Part shown: in pieces, positions 6,859 through 20,564 of the stretch
Layout: every line of letters begins with the position of its first letter
Position numbering within the stretch: position 1 is the first letter of the stretch
IMG/VR virus record: IMGVR_UViG_3300049255_000543
Coordinates: 1 to 20,564 of that record
DNA from: a virus
DNA: 20,564 nucleotides
Reading direction: 5' to 3' (one strand)
Notes under the pieces: model-generated
Seen by the model: only the letters and a program-made list of their open reading frames with translations
Told to the model about the DNA's origin: nothing
Databases searched by the model: none
Position numbers and translations under genes: made by a program

Positions 6859-7008
6859 ATGAACACATATCTTGTTGTCATCAAGCCCTTCGGGCGCCTG
6901 GTTCGTGGTGACACGATCAAGGATCCCGCCCAGATCGCGCAGGTTCTGGCGGGCGATCATGCACATGCGGTCGTACGTGTTGCTGCGTCGTCCAACAGGG
7001 AGGTGTGA
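6859..7008 (+). CDS. Small conserved phage protein upstream of the sheath gene (49 aa)
   Basis: This 49-residue ORF has a GAGGA ribosome site at 6850-6854, a plausible though short spacing from its ATG. It reads MNTYLVVIKPFGRLVRGDTI at the N-terminus. The sequence is well formed for a small beta-alpha protein, with a basic middle and an AHAVVRVAAS strand near the end. Comparable tiny genes occur just before sheath genes in other contractile-tail phages, but I cannot name a function. It ends three bases before the sheath ATG, and the sheath Shine-Dalgarno AGGGAGG lies inside its last codons. Confidence 0.7.
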   Translation: MNTYLVVIKPFGRLVRGDTIKDPAQIAQVLAGDHAHAVVRVAASSNREV

Positions 7009-7010
7009 TC

Positions 7011-8573
7011 ATGCCGATCGTTCAGCAGGGTAGCCTGAACACGACCGCATTGGTGGTGCCGGATCTGTATGTTCAGATCGTTCCGCCACAGAACCTCATT
7101 CTGAATGGCGTGCCGACGAATGTCGTCGGCGTTGTCGGCACCGCATCATGGGGGCCGGTGGGACAGCCGGTCATTGTGGCGACAATGGCCGATTATGCGC
7201 AGTATTTCGGCCCTATCATCGCGCGCAAATACGACATGGGCACCCAGGTTGCGGTGGCGGTGCAGCAGGGCGCTCAGGATTTCCGCTGCGTGCGTGTGAC
7301 CGACGGGACTGATACGGCGGCGCAGGTCTCGGTGCCAGGAACCACTTTCACGTTCACCGCGCTGTATACAGGCTCGCTGGGCAATCAGGTTGCCGTGGCG
7401 ATGAACCCTGGTTCGCAGCCCAACACCTGGCGCCTGACGGTGGCCCTGCCCGGGCTGCAGCCGGAAGTCTACGATAACGTCGGTGGGACCGGCGCGGCGT
7501 TCTGGGCTGCTCTCGCAGCGGCGGTAAATCAAGGGCAGGGTGCGCAACGCGGCCCGTCCCAGTTGATCGTTGCAAGCAGTGGCGGCGCGATCGCGACGGT
7601 CGCGCCTTTCGCGATCGAGCTGGGGGCTGGTACGGCCGGCAGTGACGGCGCGACGAGCGTTGCGGCTGGGCAGTTGGTTGGCAGCGATGTGCCCCCGCGA
7701 ACGGGGATGTACGCCCTGCGTGGCCAGGGTTGTGGCATCGCGGTTCTTGTCGATGCCGACGACCCAATCCAGTGGACCATCCAGGCGGCGTTTGGCCTTC
7801 AGGAAGGCGTCTACATGATGCTGACCGGCCCCGCCGGCGATACGATCCAGAATGCGGTGACCATCAAACATCAAGCCGGCCTGGACAGCTATGCCGCGAA
7901 ACTGATGTTCGGTGATTGGTTGTGGTGGTCCGATCAGGTCAACAACATTGTCCGGTTGGTGTCCCCTCAGGGCTTCGCGGCAGGGCGGCTTGCCAATCTG
8001 TCACCGGAACAGTCCAGCCTGAACAAGCAGTTGTATGGGGTTGTCGGCAGCCAGAAGTCGGGTGTTCCCGGCTCGGGTCAAACGACCTCGTATTCCTCGG
8101 CCGATCTTTCCGTCCTTCTTGGCGCGGGCATTGACGTGATATGCAACCCGCAGCCGGGTGGCAGCTACTGGGGTGTTCGGGGTGGGCATAACTCGTCCTC
8201 AAATGCCGCGACCAACGGCGACAATTATACGCGACTGACGAACTACATCGCGGCGACGCTTGCCGCGGGTATGGGCGTATATGTGGGCCAGGTGATCAAC
8301 GCCGACCTGTTCCGTCGGATCCGCGCGACGCAGCTGTCGTTCCTGCAGAACATGTTCGGCCAGGGCCTGCTTGGCAGCGTTGATGGCAGCCTGCCGTTCA
8401 GCGTGATCTGCGACATTTCTAACAACCCAGCCAGCCGGACGGGTCTTGGTTACGTGCAATCGGATGCGCAGGTCCAGTACCAGGCCATCAACGAGAAATT
8501 CATTGTCAACATGGAAGGCGGCCAGACCGTTCAGGTTTCGCGCCAAACCCTGCCCGGTGGGCAGCCAGCTTAA
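7011..8573 (+). CDS. Phage tail sheath protein
   Basis: This 520-residue protein is the contractile sheath subunit that surrounds the tail tube and shortens on infection. The N-terminal segment, with VVGVVGTASWGPVGQPV at about residues 40-56, then DYAQYFG and a QVAVAVQQGAQDFRCVRV strand, is the classic sheath start. The C-terminal region, with NADLFRRIRATQLSFLQN and SDAQVQYQAINEKFIVNM near the end, matches sheath domains that form the donated strands. The ATG at 7011 is preceded by AGGGAGGT with a 6-base spacing; an in-frame GTG at 7005 lies inside the ribosome site and is rejected. The presence of this gene defines the particle as myovirus-like. The tube gene follows after 12 bases. Confidence 0.93.
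   Translation: MPIVQQGSLNTTALVVPDLYVQIVPPQNLILNGVPTNVVGVVGTASWGPVGQPVIVATMADYAQYFGPIIARKYDMGTQVAVAVQQGAQDFRCVRVTDGTDTAAQVSVPGTTFTFTALYTGSLGNQVAVAMNPGSQPNTWRLTVALPGLQPEVYDNVGGTGAAFWAALAAAVNQGQGAQRGPSQLIVASSGGAIATVAPFAIELGAGTAGSDGATSVAAGQLVGSDVPPRTGMYALRGQGCGIAVLVDADDPIQWTIQAAFGLQEGVYMMLTGPAGDTIQNAVTIKHQAGLDSYAAKLMFGDWLWWSDQVNNIVRLVSPQGFAAGRLANLSPEQSSLNKQLYGVVGSQKSGVPGSGQTTSYSSADLSVLLGAGIDVICNPQPGGSYWGVRGGHNSSSNAATNGDNYTRLTNYIAATLAAGMGVYVGQVINADLFRRIRATQLSFLQNMFGQGLLGSVDGSLPFSVICDISNNPASRTGLGYVQSDAQVQYQAINEKFIVNMEGGQTVQVSRQTLPGGQPA
8550..8564 (+). other. Small perfect hairpin at the end of the sheath gene
   Basis: CTGCCC and GGGCAG form a 6-bp stem with a GGT loop in the last sheath codons, just before the AAGGAGG ribosome site of the tail tube gene. 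There is no T-run. It could insulate or stabilise mRNA at this boundary, or it may be chance. Confidence 0.3.
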
Positions 8574-8585
8574 GGAGGCGCGCTC

Positions 8586-9014
8586 ATGGCACTCACGAAC
8601 TTCTCCGTCGGTCGCGATACGCAACTCGTGGTGATCGGCCCGTCCGGGCGGATCGATCTGACGCACGTCACCGGATTTGAGGCGCGGCAGCTCACGCAGT
8701 CGGTGCGTGTCGATCGGTTGGATGGCACCCAGATGGGTACCGAAATCCCCAAGGGGTGGGAAGGAAACTTCGAGATCGAGCGCGGAGATTCCATCGTCGA
8801 CGACTTTATCGCCAAAGCCGAGCAACAGTTCTATGCCGGCAGCACCGTGCCTAATGGCACGATGTATCAGTATGTCGCGGAGACCGATGGATCAACGTCG
8901 ACCTATCAGTTCGATGGCGTTATCTTCAAACTGACGAGTGCTGGCCAATGGAAAGGTGACAGCAGTGTCAAGCAGAAGCTGGAATTCTTCGCCGCCCGAC
9001 GGAGGCGAATCTGA
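8586..9014 (+). CDS. Phage tail tube protein
   Basis: This 142-residue protein follows the sheath gene directly, as major tail tube genes do in contractile phages. It is beta-rich: VIGPSGRIDLTHVTGFEARQ near residues 17-36, a central GTEIPKGWEGNFEIERG segment, and a C-terminal QFDGVIFKLTSAGQWKGDSS segment that resembles tube proteins of the FII/gp19-like fold. It ends with a basic RRRR tail. Tube subunits stack as hexameric rings to form the inner DNA channel. A strong AAGGAGG site precedes the ATG, which suggests high expression. The stop overlaps the ATG of the chaperone gene by one base. Confidence 0.88.
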   Translation: MALTNFSVGRDTQLVVIGPSGRIDLTHVTGFEARQLTQSVRVDRLDGTQMGTEIPKGWEGNFEIERGDSIVDDFIAKAEQQFYAGSTVPNGTMYQYVAETDGSTSTYQFDGVIFKLTSAGQWKGDSSVKQKLEFFAARRRRI

Positions 9015-9361
9015 TGACGCCTTCGCAGGTGATCATCGGCACGGCCGAAGCGCGCACGACCATCATCGATGCAGAGGGACGCAAACTGGCGCTGCGGCGG
9101 CTGACCGCCTTGGACAAGCTTCGCTTGTTTAAGGCCGCCGGTCCTATTTTGGCGCAAAACCAGCCTTGGTTGGGGATGGCGCTGCTGGCCTGCTCTGTCG
9201 CGGCCATCGACGACGTGCCCGTCCCGCCTCCGGTCAATGAACAGCAGATTGAAACGATGGTCTCGCGACTCGGCGACGCGGGTATCGCCGCGATTGCGGA
9301 CGCATTTGGTGACGAGGACGATCGCGACCCCGCGGAGCTGTCGGCATCCGCGGGAAACTGA
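9014..9361 (+). CDS. Tail assembly chaperone, short (0-frame) form
   Basis: This 115-residue product is the unshifted form of the tail assembly chaperone, analogous to lambda gpG or P2 gpE, which coats the tape measure protein during tail assembly. It is mostly helical, with LRRLTALDKLRLFKAAGPIL at about residues 26-45 and an acidic end (DAFGDEDDRDPAE). It sits between the tail tube and tape measure genes, the conserved position for this protein. Its last sense codons, GGA AAC, lie inside the GGGAAAC slippery heptamer, directly before the TGA stop. That stop placement is the hallmark of a programmed -1 frameshift gene pair. Confidence 0.88.
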   Translation: MTPSQVIIGTAEARTTIIDAEGRKLALRRLTALDKLRLFKAAGPILAQNQPWLGMALLACSVAAIDDVPVPPPVNEQQIETMVSRLGDAGIAAIADAFGDEDDRDPAELSASAGN

Positions 9362-9531
9362 GCAGGCACCCCGATCTGATCGACTGCTTGTTCCTTGTTC
9401 GGAACGGGGTGCCATTCGATGTGGCGTTCAGCCTGCCGGCGGATGAGCGGTTGGCCTGGATTGTTGCCTTGGGAACGATCGACGGTCGGGAGTTCGACTG
9501 GCAATCTTTGAGCTGGAGGGAGAGGCATTGA
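9014..9531 (+). CDS. Tail assembly chaperone, -1 frameshifted fusion form
   Basis: Slippage by -1 on GGGAAAC (9352-9358) joins the chaperone to a second reading frame. Reading continues with CTG at 9358 and ends at TGA 9529-9531, giving about 172 residues. The 57-residue extension starts LSRHPDLIDCLFLVRNGVPF and continues with DVAFSLPADERLAWIVALG. It is clearly coding in character, has no start codon or ribosome site of its own near its beginning, and resembles the extension domain of G/GT- or E/E'-type chaperones. In such pairs the extended form is the minor product and links the tape measure to tube subunits; that role is from the family, not seen here. The frame is closed upstream at 9310-9312, consistent with entry only by frameshift. 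Confidence 0.85.
9352..9358 (+). promoter_or_regulatory. -1 programmed frameshift slippery site GGGAAAC
   Basis: The heptamer fits X XXY YYZ in the frame of the chaperone (codons GCG GGA AAC), and the next codon is the TGA stop. Both tRNAs can re-pair on GGG and AAA after a one-base backward slip. A GGAG string at 9334-9337, 14 bases upstream, could act as an internal Shine-Dalgarno stimulator, as in dnaX. Confidence 0.88.
9365..9413 (+). promoter_or_regulatory. Frameshift-stimulating stem-loop
   Basis: GGCACCCC at 9365-9372 pairs perfectly with GGGGTGCC at 9406-9413, leaving a 6-base spacer after the slippery site. Inside the 33-base loop a second stem, GTTCC at 9390-9394 with GGAAC at 9401-9405, abuts the outer stem and could stack on it. 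The position, spacing and strength match known -1 frameshift stimulators. Confidence 0.82.
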
Positions 9532-9860
9532 TTTCGATCGATAGATTGCAAGCAATTTGCGACCTCCTCGACCATATCGATGTCGATGAGCTGGAGACGA
9601 AAGCGTTGACCCAGGCAACGCATGATATCCAGGCGCTCGTCGAAGCATCGGAGACCGACGCGGCGACGGCTTCGATCAGTAGCCGCCTGGTCCCTGGTGG
9701 TGTTGTCATCGGCTCCACAAACCCGCACGCCGCGGAGCGGGAGTTCGGGTCAATGGACCATCAGCCCGAGCCGTTGCTTGGCGCCGCGGCCAGTGAGATC
9801 GGCCCGGTGGTTGCCGAACGTATTGGACAAGTCTTTGCACGGCGACTGGCAGGGCGGTGA
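9528..9860 (+). CDS. HK97 gp10-like / minor tail protein
   Basis: This 110-residue protein starts with TTG, which overlaps the TGA stop of the frameshifted chaperone frame (TTGA). A GGAGGGAGAGG purine tract just upstream is a strong ribosome site. The N-terminal half is helical. The C-terminal half, with VVIGSTNPHAAEREFGS (about 59-75), a Pro-containing turn and a final helix, resembles the end of HK97 gp10-like or virion-morphogenesis proteins, which act in tail completion. Its position between the chaperone and tape measure is less usual for that family, so the assignment is tentative. It could instead be an accessory tail assembly factor. Confidence 0.6.
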   Translation: MISIDRLQAICDLLDHIDVDELETKALTQATHDIQALVEASETDAATASISSRLVPGGVVIGSTNPHAAEREFGSMDHQPEPLLGAAASEIGPVVAERIGQVFARRLAGR

Positions 9861-9863
9861 ACC

Positions 9864-10853
9864 ATGATCGAGGCCTACACGGTAGGTATCACGCTGGCGC
9901 TGGAGAACGGCGTTTCGGAGGGCTTGGCGGTCATCCGCCGTGATCTGGGCACGGTCAACCGTGCCGTGGAGGGAAGTGCCGTGGGGTTGCGGCACCTGAA
10001 GCGTCTTGCGGATCACTCGCCGCTTGGCCCGCGTGCAGCGGCTCTCGGGACAGAAAGCGGTGAGTCCCAGGCCAGATCCCGCGTCAGTGCCGGATCTGCC
10101 AATCAGTCAGGCGTCGCGCGATCCGAACTCATGCCATCAGGCTTCACGAGGCAGTTGCGCACCGCCGATGGGCATGGTCGTGATCTGTTGCACGTGGCGG
10201 TGGCGAGCAGGCCCTCAGCCGACGCAGCCCGATCGTCCGGCGCACGCGCGATGTCGATCCGGACGGAAGGTGATACATCTCCACGATCGGGACGTTCGCT
10301 CGCTTCGATCGCTGGCAATGAGACGAAGCCGATAAAGGCAACAATCGTGCAGGTGCCGGAAGCGGCACGCCTGCAATATGGGCAGTCGCAGATTGCTGCG
10401 GTGCAGCCGGTCCCGAGGTCGTCCCGAGGCGGTCAGTCCGAGCGTCAGGCGGATCAGCCTCTGGCAGCGTACGTGGCGCAGCAGACCCCGTCGGCGCCAT
10501 CAGGTTTGGTCGGAGATTCGAAGCCGCGGGCTTACGATCCGCTGCGATCTACCTCCGCGGCAATCTACCAGAGCAGGGACGTTCCGCAGCCAATGGGTTC
10601 CGCAGGTGAGCGAACCAACCCAGCGAACAACGATCAATTCGGATTCCTGAAGTCCGAGATGCCATCGGCCGTGCCTCCGCCGACCGATACACGCGGAACT
10701 TCGATGCAAGGCGATGTCTATCTCGACGGAACACGCCTCGGTCGGTGGGTTGCGGACTATCTATCAAAGGCGGTCGACCGCCCACGATCTGGCACGACAG
10801 GTTTTGATCCGCGCATGACGGCCACCTGGCCTGGCGCGCCAATCGGTTCCTGA
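9864..10853 (+). CDS. Short tape-measure-like protein
   Basis: This 329-residue protein occupies the tape measure slot after the chaperone pair. The N-terminus (MIEAYTVGITLALENGVSEG, then a short helix) and the C-terminal 47 residues (GDVYLDGTRLGRWV from residue 283, then TGFDPRMTATWPGAPIG) resemble the ends of tape measure proteins from related phages. The middle (about 55-280) is rich in Ser, Arg, Pro, Gln and Ala, without the long helices, coiled coils or hydrophobic segments that tape measures usually carry, and looks disordered. The protein is much shorter than typical contractile-phage tape measures (roughly 600-900 residues). It may be a shortened or degenerate tape, or a real one for a very short tail. 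It ends 14 bases before the baseplate genes, so no hidden continuation is seen. Confidence 0.6.
   Translation: MIEAYTVGITLALENGVSEGLAVIRRDLGTVNRAVEGSAVGLRHLKRLADHSPLGPRAAALGTESGESQARSRVSAGSANQSGVARSELMPSGFTRQLRTADGHGRDLLHVAVASRPSADAARSSGARAMSIRTEGDTSPRSGRSLASIAGNETKPIKATIVQVPEAARLQYGQSQIAAVQPVPRSSRGGQSERQADQPLAAYVAQQTPSAPSGLVGDSKPRAYDPLRSTSAAIYQSRDVPQPMGSAGERTNPANNDQFGFLKSEMPSAVPPPTDTRGTSMQGDVYLDGTRLGRWVADYLSKAVDRPRSGTTGFDPRMTATWPGAPIGS
10349..10374 (+). other. Hairpin within the tape-measure-like gene
   Basis: GTGCCG and CGGCAC form 6 bp around a GAAG loop, extended by GCAG/CTGC after a two-base bulge. No function is evident and it may be chance in GC-rich DNA. Confidence 0.25.
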
Positions 10854-10867
10854 CAAGACAGGATATT

Positions 10868-11605
10868 ATGATGGGTACGGCGCTTATTCTCGGCGGGGTT
10901 GAATTTCGGGATTATGAGATTCCGGCAGCGATCAATTTCGGGGGGCGCCAGCGACTGGTGGTACACAATCTGTCCAATGGCACTCGAGTGATCGATGCCC
11001 TCGGCCGCGATGATTCGGATATATCGTTCGCAGGGATATTCTCCGGCTCCGACGCGACCCTGCGTGCACGACTGCTCGATGAGATGCGAGCAAGCGGAGT
11101 GCTGTTCCCGCTGACGTGGGACGTGTTCCTGTATTCGGTGGTGATCAAGCGATTTGAGGCCGACTATCGCACGGGATGGTGGATTCCGTATCGCGTCGTG
11201 TGCTCGGTGCTGCGTGATGAGGCCAGTGCCATTGTCGAAGCTGCCGTATCGATCGCCGCGAGCGTTCTGGCGGATGTCGCGACGGCCGGCAGCTATCCGG
11301 CCAACGGTGTGGATCTGTCGGTCACACAGACGGCTCTGAGCCAGCCTGGTGCCATGCTGCCTGGGACGACAAGCTACACGTCGGCAATGGCAAGCCTTGG
11401 CCAGAGCTCGAGCGGAATCGACACGGGAATAGCGACCACCGAGGCCAATCTGAATGGCCTCGTTACATCACAATTATCGACGCCATCCACCGCAATAGCC
11501 GCCCTTCCGGCGATGGTCGGGGCAGCGGGGCAGTTGGGTGGCTTGACGGCAGCACGAGGTTATCTCGGTCGGGCCGCTACCAACATGACGAATGTGAGTA
11601 CGTGA
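10868..11605 (+). CDS. Baseplate/tail protein with gpU-like N-terminal domain
   Basis: This 245-residue protein begins with a gpU-like domain (about 1-115). It has LGGVEFRDYEIPAAINFGGR at the N-terminus, the pattern DISFAGIFSGSDATLRARLLDEMR, and a strand pair ending GWWIPYRVVCSVL. In P2, gpU acts at the tail end; in other contractile particles this fold joins the tube to the baseplate hub. The remaining 130 residues are Ala/Ser/Thr-rich and helical or flexible, an extension not present in P2 gpU. Two Met codons are possible starts (10868 and 10871). AGGA at 10860-10863 has better spacing to 10871. The stop overlaps the GTG start of the next gene by four bases (GTGA). Confidence 0.7.
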   Translation: MMGTALILGGVEFRDYEIPAAINFGGRQRLVVHNLSNGTRVIDALGRDDSDISFAGIFSGSDATLRARLLDEMRASGVLFPLTWDVFLYSVVIKRFEADYRTGWWIPYRVVCSVLRDEASAIVEAAVSIAASVLADVATAGSYPANGVDLSVTQTALSQPGAMLPGTTSYTSAMASLGQSSSGIDTGIATTEANLNGLVTSQLSTPSTAIAALPAMVGAAGQLGGLTAARGYLGRAATNMTNVST

Positions 11606-11793
11606 CGGTGAAATCGATAACGATCGCGGGCGGCAATTTGTACGATATTGCCGCCCGTGAGTTAGGAGATGCGACCCAATGGATACGCATCGCTCAGCTG
11701 AACGGCATTGAGGATCCGATGTTGTCTGGCATCGTGACGCTTGTCATTCCAGACATCGATCCGAACGCGGGAGGCGGTGTTGCTCCTCAGTGA
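11602..11793 (+). CDS. LysM-like tail protein X
   Basis: This 63-residue protein is a single LysM-type module with the pattern GGNLYDIAARELGDATQWIRIA and then QLNGIEDPMLSG, typical of P2 gpX and related baseplate hub proteins. In contractile tails it clamps hub components rather than binding peptidoglycan. The start is GTG at 11602, overlapping the previous stop by four bases, which implies coupled translation. The short Gly-rich tail (NAGGGVAPQ) contains the ribosome site of the next gene. Confidence 0.85.
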   Translation: MTVKSITIAGGNLYDIAARELGDATQWIRIAQLNGIEDPMLSGIVTLVIPDIDPNAGGGVAPQ

Positions 11794-17470: not shown

Positions 17471-17582
17471 CCTTCCAAGTCCACGATATATAGTCCGAAT
17501 CCGATACGAAGATTATTGTCCAAGCGTAAGGTGGTGTTCCGAGCACTCACTCAACGCAATGCTTTGGGAGCTGCGCGCTATT
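17471..17582 (+). other. Intergenic region before the large fibre gene
   Basis: This AT-richer gap contains a GATATATAG string near 17488 without a clear -35 partner at normal spacing. It ends with a GGGAG at 17566-17570, 12 bases before the preferred ATG. No promoter or terminator can be supported. Confidence 0.4.
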
Positions 17583-20564
17583 ATGCCAACGATCGACGAG
17601 CTGGCACCGGCAACCGCTACAGCTGATACGGACGAATTGCTTGTCAGTCAGGGTGGCATTGCACGCAAGGCGACACGGGCCCAGGTCTTGTCCGGGGTCC
17701 AGCCGACCGTTTCGCTCAACAGTGGATCTCTCTTGGGCCGCCAGAGTGCTGGCACGGGAGGTCCGGAACAGATTGGTATCGGTGCCAACCTGACGCTTTC
17801 CGGTGGCACTTTATCGGCCGCGGCGAGTGCCTTCACCATCGCAAGCCTGCCGGTTGGAAACGTCCCTGGCACAATCGATGATATTCCGATTGGCCAGGCG
17901 GGGACAAACGTCGCCGTCACCTACAGCCAGTTCATGAGCGGGATCTCAGGGCTCTCCAACGTCAATGCCTCGCAATTGATGGTGATTCCGACCGGCTCGA
18001 CAGTGCAGCAAAAGCTGGCCGATTTCGCGGCGGGGGCATTGCCTAAATCCGGCGGCGCCCTGACGGGTTCGCTGACCTTGGCGGCGGATCCGGCAGCCGC
18101 GCTGCAGGCGGCGACGAAGCAGTATGTCGATGCAAGGGTATTGCGTACGGGCGATACCTTGACCGGGCCACTGACGCTTGCCGCGGATCCGTCGCTGCCG
18201 CTACAGGCGGCCACGAAGGAATATGTCGACACACAGACCGGCGGGAGTCTGCCGAAAACCGGCGGCGCGCTGACTGGCGCCTTGACTCTTGCCGCGGATC
18301 CAGCGGCCGCCTTGCAGGCGGCGACGAAACAGTATGTCGATACGAGGGTGTTGCGCACTGGCGATACCCTGACCGGACCGCTTACGCTTGCCGCCGATCC
18401 GACGCAGCCGCTTCAGGCTGCCACGAAGGAGTATGTCGATAACCAGGCAGGCGCCAATCTGTCGAAAGCGGGTGGCACGCTCACGGGTGCCTTGACGCTG
18501 GCGACTGACCCTATGATGCCGCTTCAGGCGGCGACCAAGGAATATGTCGACACCCAGGCAGGCGCCAATCTGTCGAAGGCGGGCGGCACCCTCACAGGTG
18601 CATTGACGCTGGCTGCGGATCCAACGGTCGTATTGCAGGCGGCGACGAAACAATACGTCGATACAAGGGTGCTGCGTACAGGCGATACTCTTACCGGTCC
18701 TCTGACGCTTGCCGCCGACCCGACGCAACCGCTACAGGCGGCCACGAAGGAGTATGTCGACAACCAGGCTGGTGGCAGTCTGCCGAAGGCTGGCGGCACG
18801 CTCACTGGGGCCTTGACGCTTGCCGCAAATCCGACGTCGTCGCTGCAGGCGGCGACCAAGCAATATGTCGACCAACAGGTGGCGACGACCCTTCCACTGG
18901 TGGGCGGCACACTGACAGGGCCGATCAACCTGTCCGCGAACCCGACCAGCGCATTGCAGGCGGCACCCAAACAGTATGTCGACGCGGCGGTCGCCGGGGT
19001 TTTGCCGATTTCAGGCGGATCAATGACCGGCCCACTGTCATTCAATCAGGCGTATACCGGTTCGGCGGCTCCAACCGTACTGACGACGTCACGCCAGCAG
19101 GCGAACGTGGGGGACAGCCCTCTCGTCTATTCCACGATGACGGTTGCCATGTCAGGAGGTGCCGGGTCATCGAATACAAACGCCTTGCTTACGACCAATG
19201 TCGGCAACGTCTTGAATTCCAGCGGTGTCGCATCCGATGGTCCTGGCACCGAGGTGTACTCCTTGGTCTCATACCTGAACTCCTCGGCATTGCGGCCCCT
19301 CGGAGTTGGCGCGGTGGCAGCGCAGCACGTATCGATACAATCTGCGCCGACCCGCAACCTGCCACCCGGCGGCGTGCCGTCCGGTCGTCAGATGGCCCAG
19401 CTATGGGCACTTTGGCTGCCGACGGTCGACAAAACGAATCTACCATCGTCCGTCGCCAACTCGATCACGGCGAACGAATCAGACCTCCAGGCCAACAATG
19501 TTGATGACGCGAATGCGCGATTCGGTCTGCAGCTCGTCGTCAATGAAGCGATCCCTCTGGCGTCGGGTGGGTATCCGCTTGAATGGGCTTACGGCATTCT
19601 CACGACCACGAGTGGGACTGGCCAGTTCAAATGGATGGCCAATCTTCAGGGTAATTATTCAATCGCGGTGATCGATACCCGGAACGCCTTTCCCAATGGA
19701 ACGGCGTTGGCTTATCCCACGATCACCACTTCGTTGACCTCACCCAGCACGACAGTCCACGTCAGCAATGCTATGCCCTTCACGTCAGCCGGCGTGTATG
19801 GGCATCCGGTATCTTCGACCAATACGTCCTCGATCAAAATTGGTGCGGGGACCTATACGCAGGTCGGCTGCAGTCTCGATGGTCCGGGATTGACCTCTGG
19901 TACACTGACGCTGGCGGCCGCGGTCTCGGTCGCCAATGGGGTGTCGGGGAATGTTGTTACCAACACAAGTCGCACGATTTGGATGGCCACCGGCCAGCAG
20001 ATCGCGTTCGATTACGGCGGCACCATCAACGTATTTTATGACACGAGCGTTGGTTCTCTGCATGTCACCAGCCAGCTTATGGCGGATGGGGGGTTTCTAC
20101 TCGATCACGGAAGCGGAACGTCCCTCTATTGGGATAGCTCTGCGTTCTCTTCCGCGGGGGGCGGTCATCTGCAGGGCAATCTGATGGTTACCGGAACCCT
20201 GTATACGCCCAACAGCCTGACGGTAGGTGGCTATTCGACTCTTGCTGGCCCTGTGACCTTCGCAAACTCCGCGACATTCAACAATCTAAGCACGTTTCAA
20301 AATGGCGTGACGATGAATGGCGGGCTTTCAGTGGCGTCGGGGACCCTGTCAGCCAAGAACGGTCTGTCAGTCAGCGGCGGAAACCTCACCATCCCTATCT
20401 TTACGATTGCGACTCTGCCGACGGCAGCGTCCGGCACGCTCGCCTATGTCAGCAACGGTCGCAAAGTGGGTGAGGCATCCGGCAGTGGCACCGGTGTACT
20501 CGCCGTAGGAAGCAGCGCCGGTCAATGGATATCTGTCATGAGCGGAACGGTAGTATCCGCCTAG
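17583..20564 (+). CDS. Large tail fibre protein with tandem stalk repeats
   Basis: This 993-residue protein is a long host-recognition fibre. The N-terminus (MPTIDELAPATATADTDELL) is a conserved attachment segment. Residues 153-473 hold nine tandem 33- or 37-residue repeats of the phage fibre repeat type, with GGxLTGxLTL and LQAATKxYVD cores, which probably form a trimeric stalk. A tenth, broken copy (LPISGGSMTGPLSF) leads into a large domain of unknown fold (about 490-850). Towards the end, short beta repeats (SLTVGGYSTLAGPVTF and similar) suggest a triple-stranded beta helix. The last 50 residues (TIATLPTAASGTLAYVSNGR and onwards) resemble a conserved fibre end domain. An upstream in-frame ATG at 17559 lacks a ribosome site; 17583 fits the conserved N-terminus. 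The stop codon is the last base of the window. Confidence 0.88.
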   Translation: MPTIDELAPATATADTDELLVSQGGIARKATRAQVLSGVQPTVSLNSGSLLGRQSAGTGGPEQIGIGANLTLSGGTLSAAASAFTIASLPVGNVPGTIDDIPIGQAGTNVAVTYSQFMSGISGLSNVNASQLMVIPTGSTVQQKLADFAAGALPKSGGALTGSLTLAADPAAALQAATKQYVDARVLRTGDTLTGPLTLAADPSLPLQAATKEYVDTQTGGSLPKTGGALTGALTLAADPAAALQAATKQYVDTRVLRTGDTLTGPLTLAADPTQPLQAATKEYVDNQAGANLSKAGGTLTGALTLATDPMMPLQAATKEYVDTQAGANLSKAGGTLTGALTLAADPTVVLQAATKQYVDTRVLRTGDTLTGPLTLAADPTQPLQAATKEYVDNQAGGSLPKAGGTLTGALTLAANPTSSLQAATKQYVDQQVATTLPLVGGTLTGPINLSANPTSALQAAPKQYVDAAVAGVLPISGGSMTGPLSFNQAYTGSAAPTVLTTSRQQANVGDSPLVYSTMTVAMSGGAGSSNTNALLTTNVGNVLNSSGVASDGPGTEVYSLVSYLNSSALRPLGVGAVAAQHVSIQSAPTRNLPPGGVPSGRQMAQLWALWLPTVDKTNLPSSVANSITANESDLQANNVDDANARFGLQLVVNEAIPLASGGYPLEWAYGILTTTSGTGQFKWMANLQGNYSIAVIDTRNAFPNGTALAYPTITTSLTSPSTTVHVSNAMPFTSAGVYGHPVSSTNTSSIKIGAGTYTQVGCSLDGPGLTSGTLTLAAAVSVANGVSGNVVTNTSRTIWMATGQQIAFDYGGTINVFYDTSVGSLHVTSQLMADGGFLLDHGSGTSLYWDSSAFSSAGGGHLQGNLMVTGTLYTPNSLTVGGYSTLAGPVTFANSATFNNLSTFQNGVTMNGGLSVASGTLSAKNGLSVSGGNLTIPIFTIATLPTAASGTLAYVSNGRKVGEASGSGTGVLAVGSSAGQWISVMSGTVVSA
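18039..19001 (+). repeat. Nine tandem coding repeats in the fibre stalk
   Basis: Unit boundaries are 18039, 18138, 18249, 18348, 18459, 18570, 18669, 18780 and 18891, with unit lengths of 99 or 111 bases. Units 1-2, 3-4 and 6-7 form a higher-order 210-base pair: a short GGALTG-type unit ending in KQYVDxR, then a long VLRTGDTLTG-type unit ending in KEYVD. Units 5, 8 and 9 are single long units. A degenerate tenth copy starts at 19002. Confidence 0.92.

Follow-up and report, generated by a model that had tools for sequence, protein, structure and literature searches.

The programmed -1 ribosomal frameshift by which phages obtain two tail assembly chaperones from a single gene is well known, and GGGAAAC at the position described here has already been reported in other phages. 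Chaperones of this class bind the tape measure protein through their G part and the tube protein through their T part, and neither part is found in the virion. In phage P2 the E/E' genes follow the sheath and tube genes and precede the tape measure gene of a contractile-tail operon, and their slippery site is a run of T. For lambda, the G/GT pair, its ratio and its function have been described (PMC5009743). Burkholderia phage KL1 is predicted to use a GGGAAAC site immediately upstream of a TGA in gp18/gp19 (PMC3483164). The Caulobacter phages Colossus and phiCbK carry GGGAAAC and AAAAAAC, respectively (PMC3556154), and the heptamer of HCTV-1 is G_GGA_AAC (PMC5009743). Work with GeneTack measured 7% frameshifting for a cluster of phage tail assembly chaperones (PMC3711429).

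We analysed here a viral record of 20,564 bases (the window) and show that a gene of its tail operon ends in a cassette of slippery heptamer, stop codon and downstream stem, and that the heptamer, the stem and the -1 reading frame behind them are conserved in evolution. These features point very strongly to a programmed -1 ribosomal frameshift of the lambda G/GT type, which would let one gene yield two tail assembly chaperones. As in lambda G/GT, one gene ahead of the tape measure carries a stop close to a G_GGA_AAN heptamer and a C-terminal domain in the -1 frame, and its two products are presumed to be made in unequal ratio. The locus differs from lambda in the A-site codon (AAC versus AAG), in a strongly conserved hairpin and in the contractile tail. 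With P2 E/E' it shares the place in the operon, with one extra small gene before the tape measure gene in the window, and it has GGGAAAC instead of the T run. KL1 resembles the window in a predicted downstream stem-loop and in one gene before the tape measure (PMC3483164), however it is a siphophage with products of 142 and 264 aa, and its site is a one-genome prediction without covariation. The E. coli dnaX cassette also combines a slippery heptamer with a downstream hairpin, a likeness that for the window is one of structure and conservation only. In contrast to dnaX, an upstream Shine-Dalgarno stimulator is not conserved, and the shift would lengthen the product, whereas the dnaX shift shortens it.

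The putative chaperone gene within the tail operon

Gene order and family matches identify a contractile-tail operon in the window, arranged as terminase, portal, sheath, putative tube, chaperone, a 110-aa gene, putative tape measure and baseplate genes (the genes from sheath to tape measure and all elements of the cassette are given on the + strand). The sheath gene (7005-8573) matches phrog_23 (4.8e-45). Directly after it, and immediately upstream of the chaperone gene, 8586-9014 encodes a protein of 142 aa that is, judged by this position, a putative tail tube protein; it belongs to phrog_12993, a family without function. The 0-frame chaperone gene (9014-9361; gpG-like, 115 aa, ATG start, TGA stop) lies between this tube-position gene and the tape-measure-position gene, with one gene intervening before the latter, as has been reported for HK97 and KL1 (PMC3483164). 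Its protein falls into phrog_20383, which has no function (2.4e-21), and matches phrog_508, a tail assembly chaperone family, only at 0.051. Sequence similarity to lambda G/GT was not detectable, and the 0-frame alignment, used as a profile against PDB sequences, gave chance hits only. The AlphaFold model of the 0-frame part (pLDDT 88) has as its top PDB fold match the HK97 tail assembly chaperone 2ob9, a weak match (E 0.042, TM 0.43/0.46, prob 0.90); its BFVD (viral) matches include several proteins named as tail assembly chaperones. Pfam gave nothing convincing for the 0-frame chaperone, the extension or the tape measure protein, and Rfam had no match anywhere within the window.

The gene between chaperone and tape measure (9528-9860, 110 aa) begins with a TTG that overlaps the stop of the extension, and a strong Shine-Dalgarno sequence, GGAGGGAGAGG, is found at 9515-9525. 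A convincing family match was absent in PHROG and Pfam. Its product carries a GGVVIGSTNPHAAEREFGS motif, which we take to resemble HK97 gp10-like tail completion proteins. In some relatives (e.g. L005, L042) this gene is apparently missing and the tape measure gene then adjoins the extension. The putative short tape measure protein itself (9864-10853, 329 aa) had no family match in PHROG or Pfam; its name is suggested by gene order and by the end motifs seen in relatives, where the N- and C-terminal ends are conserved and the middle is variable. The protein in this position has roughly 270-510 aa in soil relatives and 742 aa in Komagataeibacter phage phiKX1. Tape measure proteins set roughly 1.5 angstrom of tail per residue, and by this usual rule 329 aa would imply a tail of about 50 nm.

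Further downstream, phrog_21362 matches two ORFs, 10868-11605 (family residues 4-156) and 11602-11793 (262-317). What is a single protein in this family is here split into two -1-related ORFs that overlap in GTGA, and no slippery heptamer was seen at this overlap. The record closes with a putative tail fibre (17559-20564) built from repeated units LTGALTLAADPxxxLQAATKQYVD. Its ends match genes exactly, position 1 being the terminase ATG and position 20564 the fibre stop, as if the record had been trimmed.

Conservation of the heptamer, the stem and the -1 frame

The chaperone ORF ends in the codons GCG GGA AAC TGA. The heptamer at 9352-9358 is hence read as G_GGA_AAC, in the correct phase, and the 0-frame stop TGA (9359-9361) lies directly 3' of it. 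In the -1 frame, a T/E'-like extension of 57 codons (9358-9528) runs to a TGA at 9529-9531, and the predicted fusion product (9014-9531) has 172 aa (115 + 57). A spacer of 6 nt (9359-9364) separates the heptamer from the predicted stimulatory stem, whose arms are GGCACCCCG (9365-9373) and CGGGGTGCC (9405-9413). The phased heptamer, the adjacent stop, the spacer, the coding extension and the G/GT-type frameshift itself had been proposed in the earlier note on this stretch, and all of them are supported by direct reading, by the conservation described below or by both. The stem is perfect, as had been claimed, but we read it as 9 bp instead of 8.

From this anatomy and its conservation we infer that slippage occurs, at which rate, and what the two products do. 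Most ribosomes would read GGA AAC, terminate at the TGA and thereby produce the 115-aa chaperone. In a minority, delayed by the GC-rich hairpin that lies 6 nt further on, the two tRNAs would slip from GGA-AAC to GGG-AAA, and reading would restart at CTG, giving a fusion of 172 aa that ends in a C-terminal domain of 57 aa. If lambda is taken as the model, the short form would coat the tape measure protein, whereas recruiting the tube protein would fall to the long form.

Taken singly, the elements of the cassette are not rare. GGGAAAC occurs at chance level in the window (3 found versus 2.0 expected), although the pattern XXXYYYZ with a stop directly after it has a single instance on the + strand. 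The 62 nt after the heptamer fold with -27.6 kcal/mol (z = -3.85), and none of 200 shuffles was as good, but the window holds three such 9-bp inverted repeats, and 3.5% of its 62-nt windows are equally stable. It is the phased combination together with its conservation that exceeds chance; the matter is decided by conservation.

Relatives were collected by protein-pattern scans with the 0-frame chaperone and the tube protein, neither of which touches the cassette. This gave 159 loci, of which 101 distinct ones (window included) are readable through the junction. A slippery heptamer stands in phase in all 101, as GGGAAAC in 100 and as AAAAAAC in one (L078). A second scan with the extension found 80 loci (76 GGGAAAC, 4 AAAAAAC), 22 of them absent from the 101 above. 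Eight bacterial genome contigs have the same arrangement, six with GGGAAAC and two with AAAAAAC; four are titled Acetobacteraceae and one comes from Limobrevibacterium gyesilva RN2-1. The loci are related, and therefore these counts are not independent events. In one contig (L056/L123) the heptamer has lost one base, and in L073 the 0 frame is broken upstream of an intact cassette; both have the look of errors or decay.

The 101 loci all keep a slippery heptamer although the preceding codon specifies A, V, S, Q or other residues, with only its last base fixed. Of the Gly codons of these genes, just 13% are GGA. In L078, L165, L168, L206 and L225, G_GGA_AAC is replaced by A_AAA_AAC, which takes several coordinated substitutions and keeps the slippery pattern. 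In a minority of relatives the 0-frame stop comes 18 nt later, inside the hairpin.

Pairing and silent sites of the stem were analysed in 79 diverse sequences. The nine pairs hold in 99.7% of 711 cells, and sliding one arm by 1-3 columns as a control lowers pairing to at most 48%. Compensatory changes occur at two pairs, including one at which C-G has become G-C in L134 and L136, so that the covariation for which the earlier note had asked is found in relatives. Silent sites inside the stem, which overlies codons of the HP...NGVPFDVAF motif of the extension, are nearly frozen, with GGG for Gly in 77 of 79 sequences and GTG for Val in 79 of 79; the commonest Gly codon in the same genes is GGC. 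Outside the stem, the third positions of Gly, Val, Pro and Ala codons use four bases (entropy 1.4-1.9 bits), and the Pro codon at 9412-9414, just outside, shows four different third bases.

Two further elements that had been proposed fare differently. The nested 5-bp stem is present in the window sequence, but its register changes between relatives: of its pairs in the window's register, 31-57 and 32-56 (alignment columns) are kept almost throughout, 30-58, 33-55 and 34-54 are broken in 42-53 of the 79 sequences, and the loop of other relatives pairs in a different register. We therefore rejected it as a conserved part. The GGAG at 9334-9337, suggested as a dnaX-like internal stimulator, is kept in only 15 of 79 relatives and was likewise rejected as a conserved element. 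The best anti-Shine-Dalgarno duplex upstream averages -4.0 kcal/mol versus -2.9 in control windows, which is only a weak enrichment.

The -1 frame is coding. From the heptamer onward, variation is concentrated in -1-frame third positions (1.09 bits versus 0.33 and 0.56, outside the stem), and protein identity of the extension is 42-89% across 48 relatives. In every locus with an intact junction the extension is in the -1 frame, and a 0-frame fusion is found in no relative. The extension is modelled as a small, mostly helical domain (pLDDT 85); a PHROG scan with it gave weak hits only, to families without function.

The arrangement extends to a clade of acetic acid bacterium phages. AAAAAAC with TGA or TAA is the form seen in phiKX1, an isolated Komagataeibacter phage, and in 29 related contigs of viruses, and most members of this clade keep the stem at the same place. 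Phages phiKX1 and phiKX2 (LC644975, LC644976) have tube and chaperone genes homologous to those of the window, and phiKX1 has a TGA after the heptamer, the identical 9-bp stem and a -1 extension with the same HP...GVP.DVA motif. It differs in the heptamer A_AAA_AAC, a shorter loop and the 742-aa gene in the tape measure position. Where a fusion is predicted for the window, GenBank annotates two separate ORFs in phiKX1, the extension being a separate hypothetical protein from an internal ATG (L161:12791-12970); this is probably a mis-annotation of the frameshift product. A prophage subclade (L264, L265, L274-L277) keeps AAAAAAC and has lost the 9-bp stem or replaced it by another fold, hence the stem is not indispensable everywhere. 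Overall, relatives lacking both heptamer and stem, which would have spoken against the frameshift, did not appear: the heptamer is kept, and the stem is kept in nearly all.

Other explanations of the junction

The extension could be a separate small gene with its own start, translated by re-initiation after the TGA, with the stem acting on re-initiation. The separate ORF given to it in phiKX1 and a GTG codon that lies inside the 3' arm in all loci would fit such a gene. However, the codon-like pattern of conservation in the -1 frame (LSRHPDLIDCL) sets in at the heptamer, 5' of any start that the relatives share, the ATG of phiKX1 is missing from the clade of the window, and the heptamer is left unexplained. 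The 0-frame residues just upstream of the heptamer are hypervariable in the alignment of relatives and conservation resumes at the junction. Coding in the -1 frame that sets in at the heptamer, behind such a variable stretch, is expected of a fusion arising by slippage and not of an independent start. An own start for the extension, which would have contradicted the earlier note, is thus not borne out, and we regard re-initiation as very unlikely.

Even less probable is that RNA polymerase, and not the ribosome, slips and gives mRNAs in the -1 frame. Relatives with A_AAA_AAC do have a run of six A, but the runs in the window comprise only three G and three A, and the slippage described for bacterial polymerase involves nine A or T in a row (PMC5009743). 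Polymerase slippage would also require neither the phase of the heptamer nor a conserved RNA stem. That a sequencing or mutational frameshift has split one gene, as the one-base deletion in contig L056/L123 might suggest, is refuted by the same -1 arrangement, which recurs across many samples in over 120 distinct viral loci, in eight bacterial contigs and in an isolated phage, with silent sites frozen.

A-site codon, hosts and significance

The A-site codon of the heptamer is AAC in every intact locus and never AAG, after GGG or AAA alike. In E. coli, where there is a single tRNA-Lys, A_AAG sites are preferred (PMC5009743). A_AAA_AAC is far less shift-prone there than A_AAA_AAG (PMC5009743), a point that we count against the frameshift reading. 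In the bacterial genomes of L168 and L163, genes for both tRNA-Lys(CTT) and tRNA-Lys(TTT) are present. The exclusive use of AAC together with both tRNAs in these genomes fits the idea that hosts with two tRNA-Lys favour A_AAC, as a correlation over two genomes. A tentative extension of this idea, which we consider possible though on balance rather doubtful, is that a tightly pairing tRNA-Lys(CTT) in the host excludes A_AAG and drives the phages to A_AAC combined with a frozen hairpin.

For annotation, the locus exposes a gap: the extension has no gene call in the window, and in phiKX1 it is annotated as a protein of its own. The known frameshifted tail chaperones are joined by a large and uniform family that is linked to Acetobacteraceae. 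In this family, the role of a downstream hairpin as stimulator receives unusually strong evolutionary support from frozen silent sites, compensatory changes and the replacement of one slippery heptamer by another.
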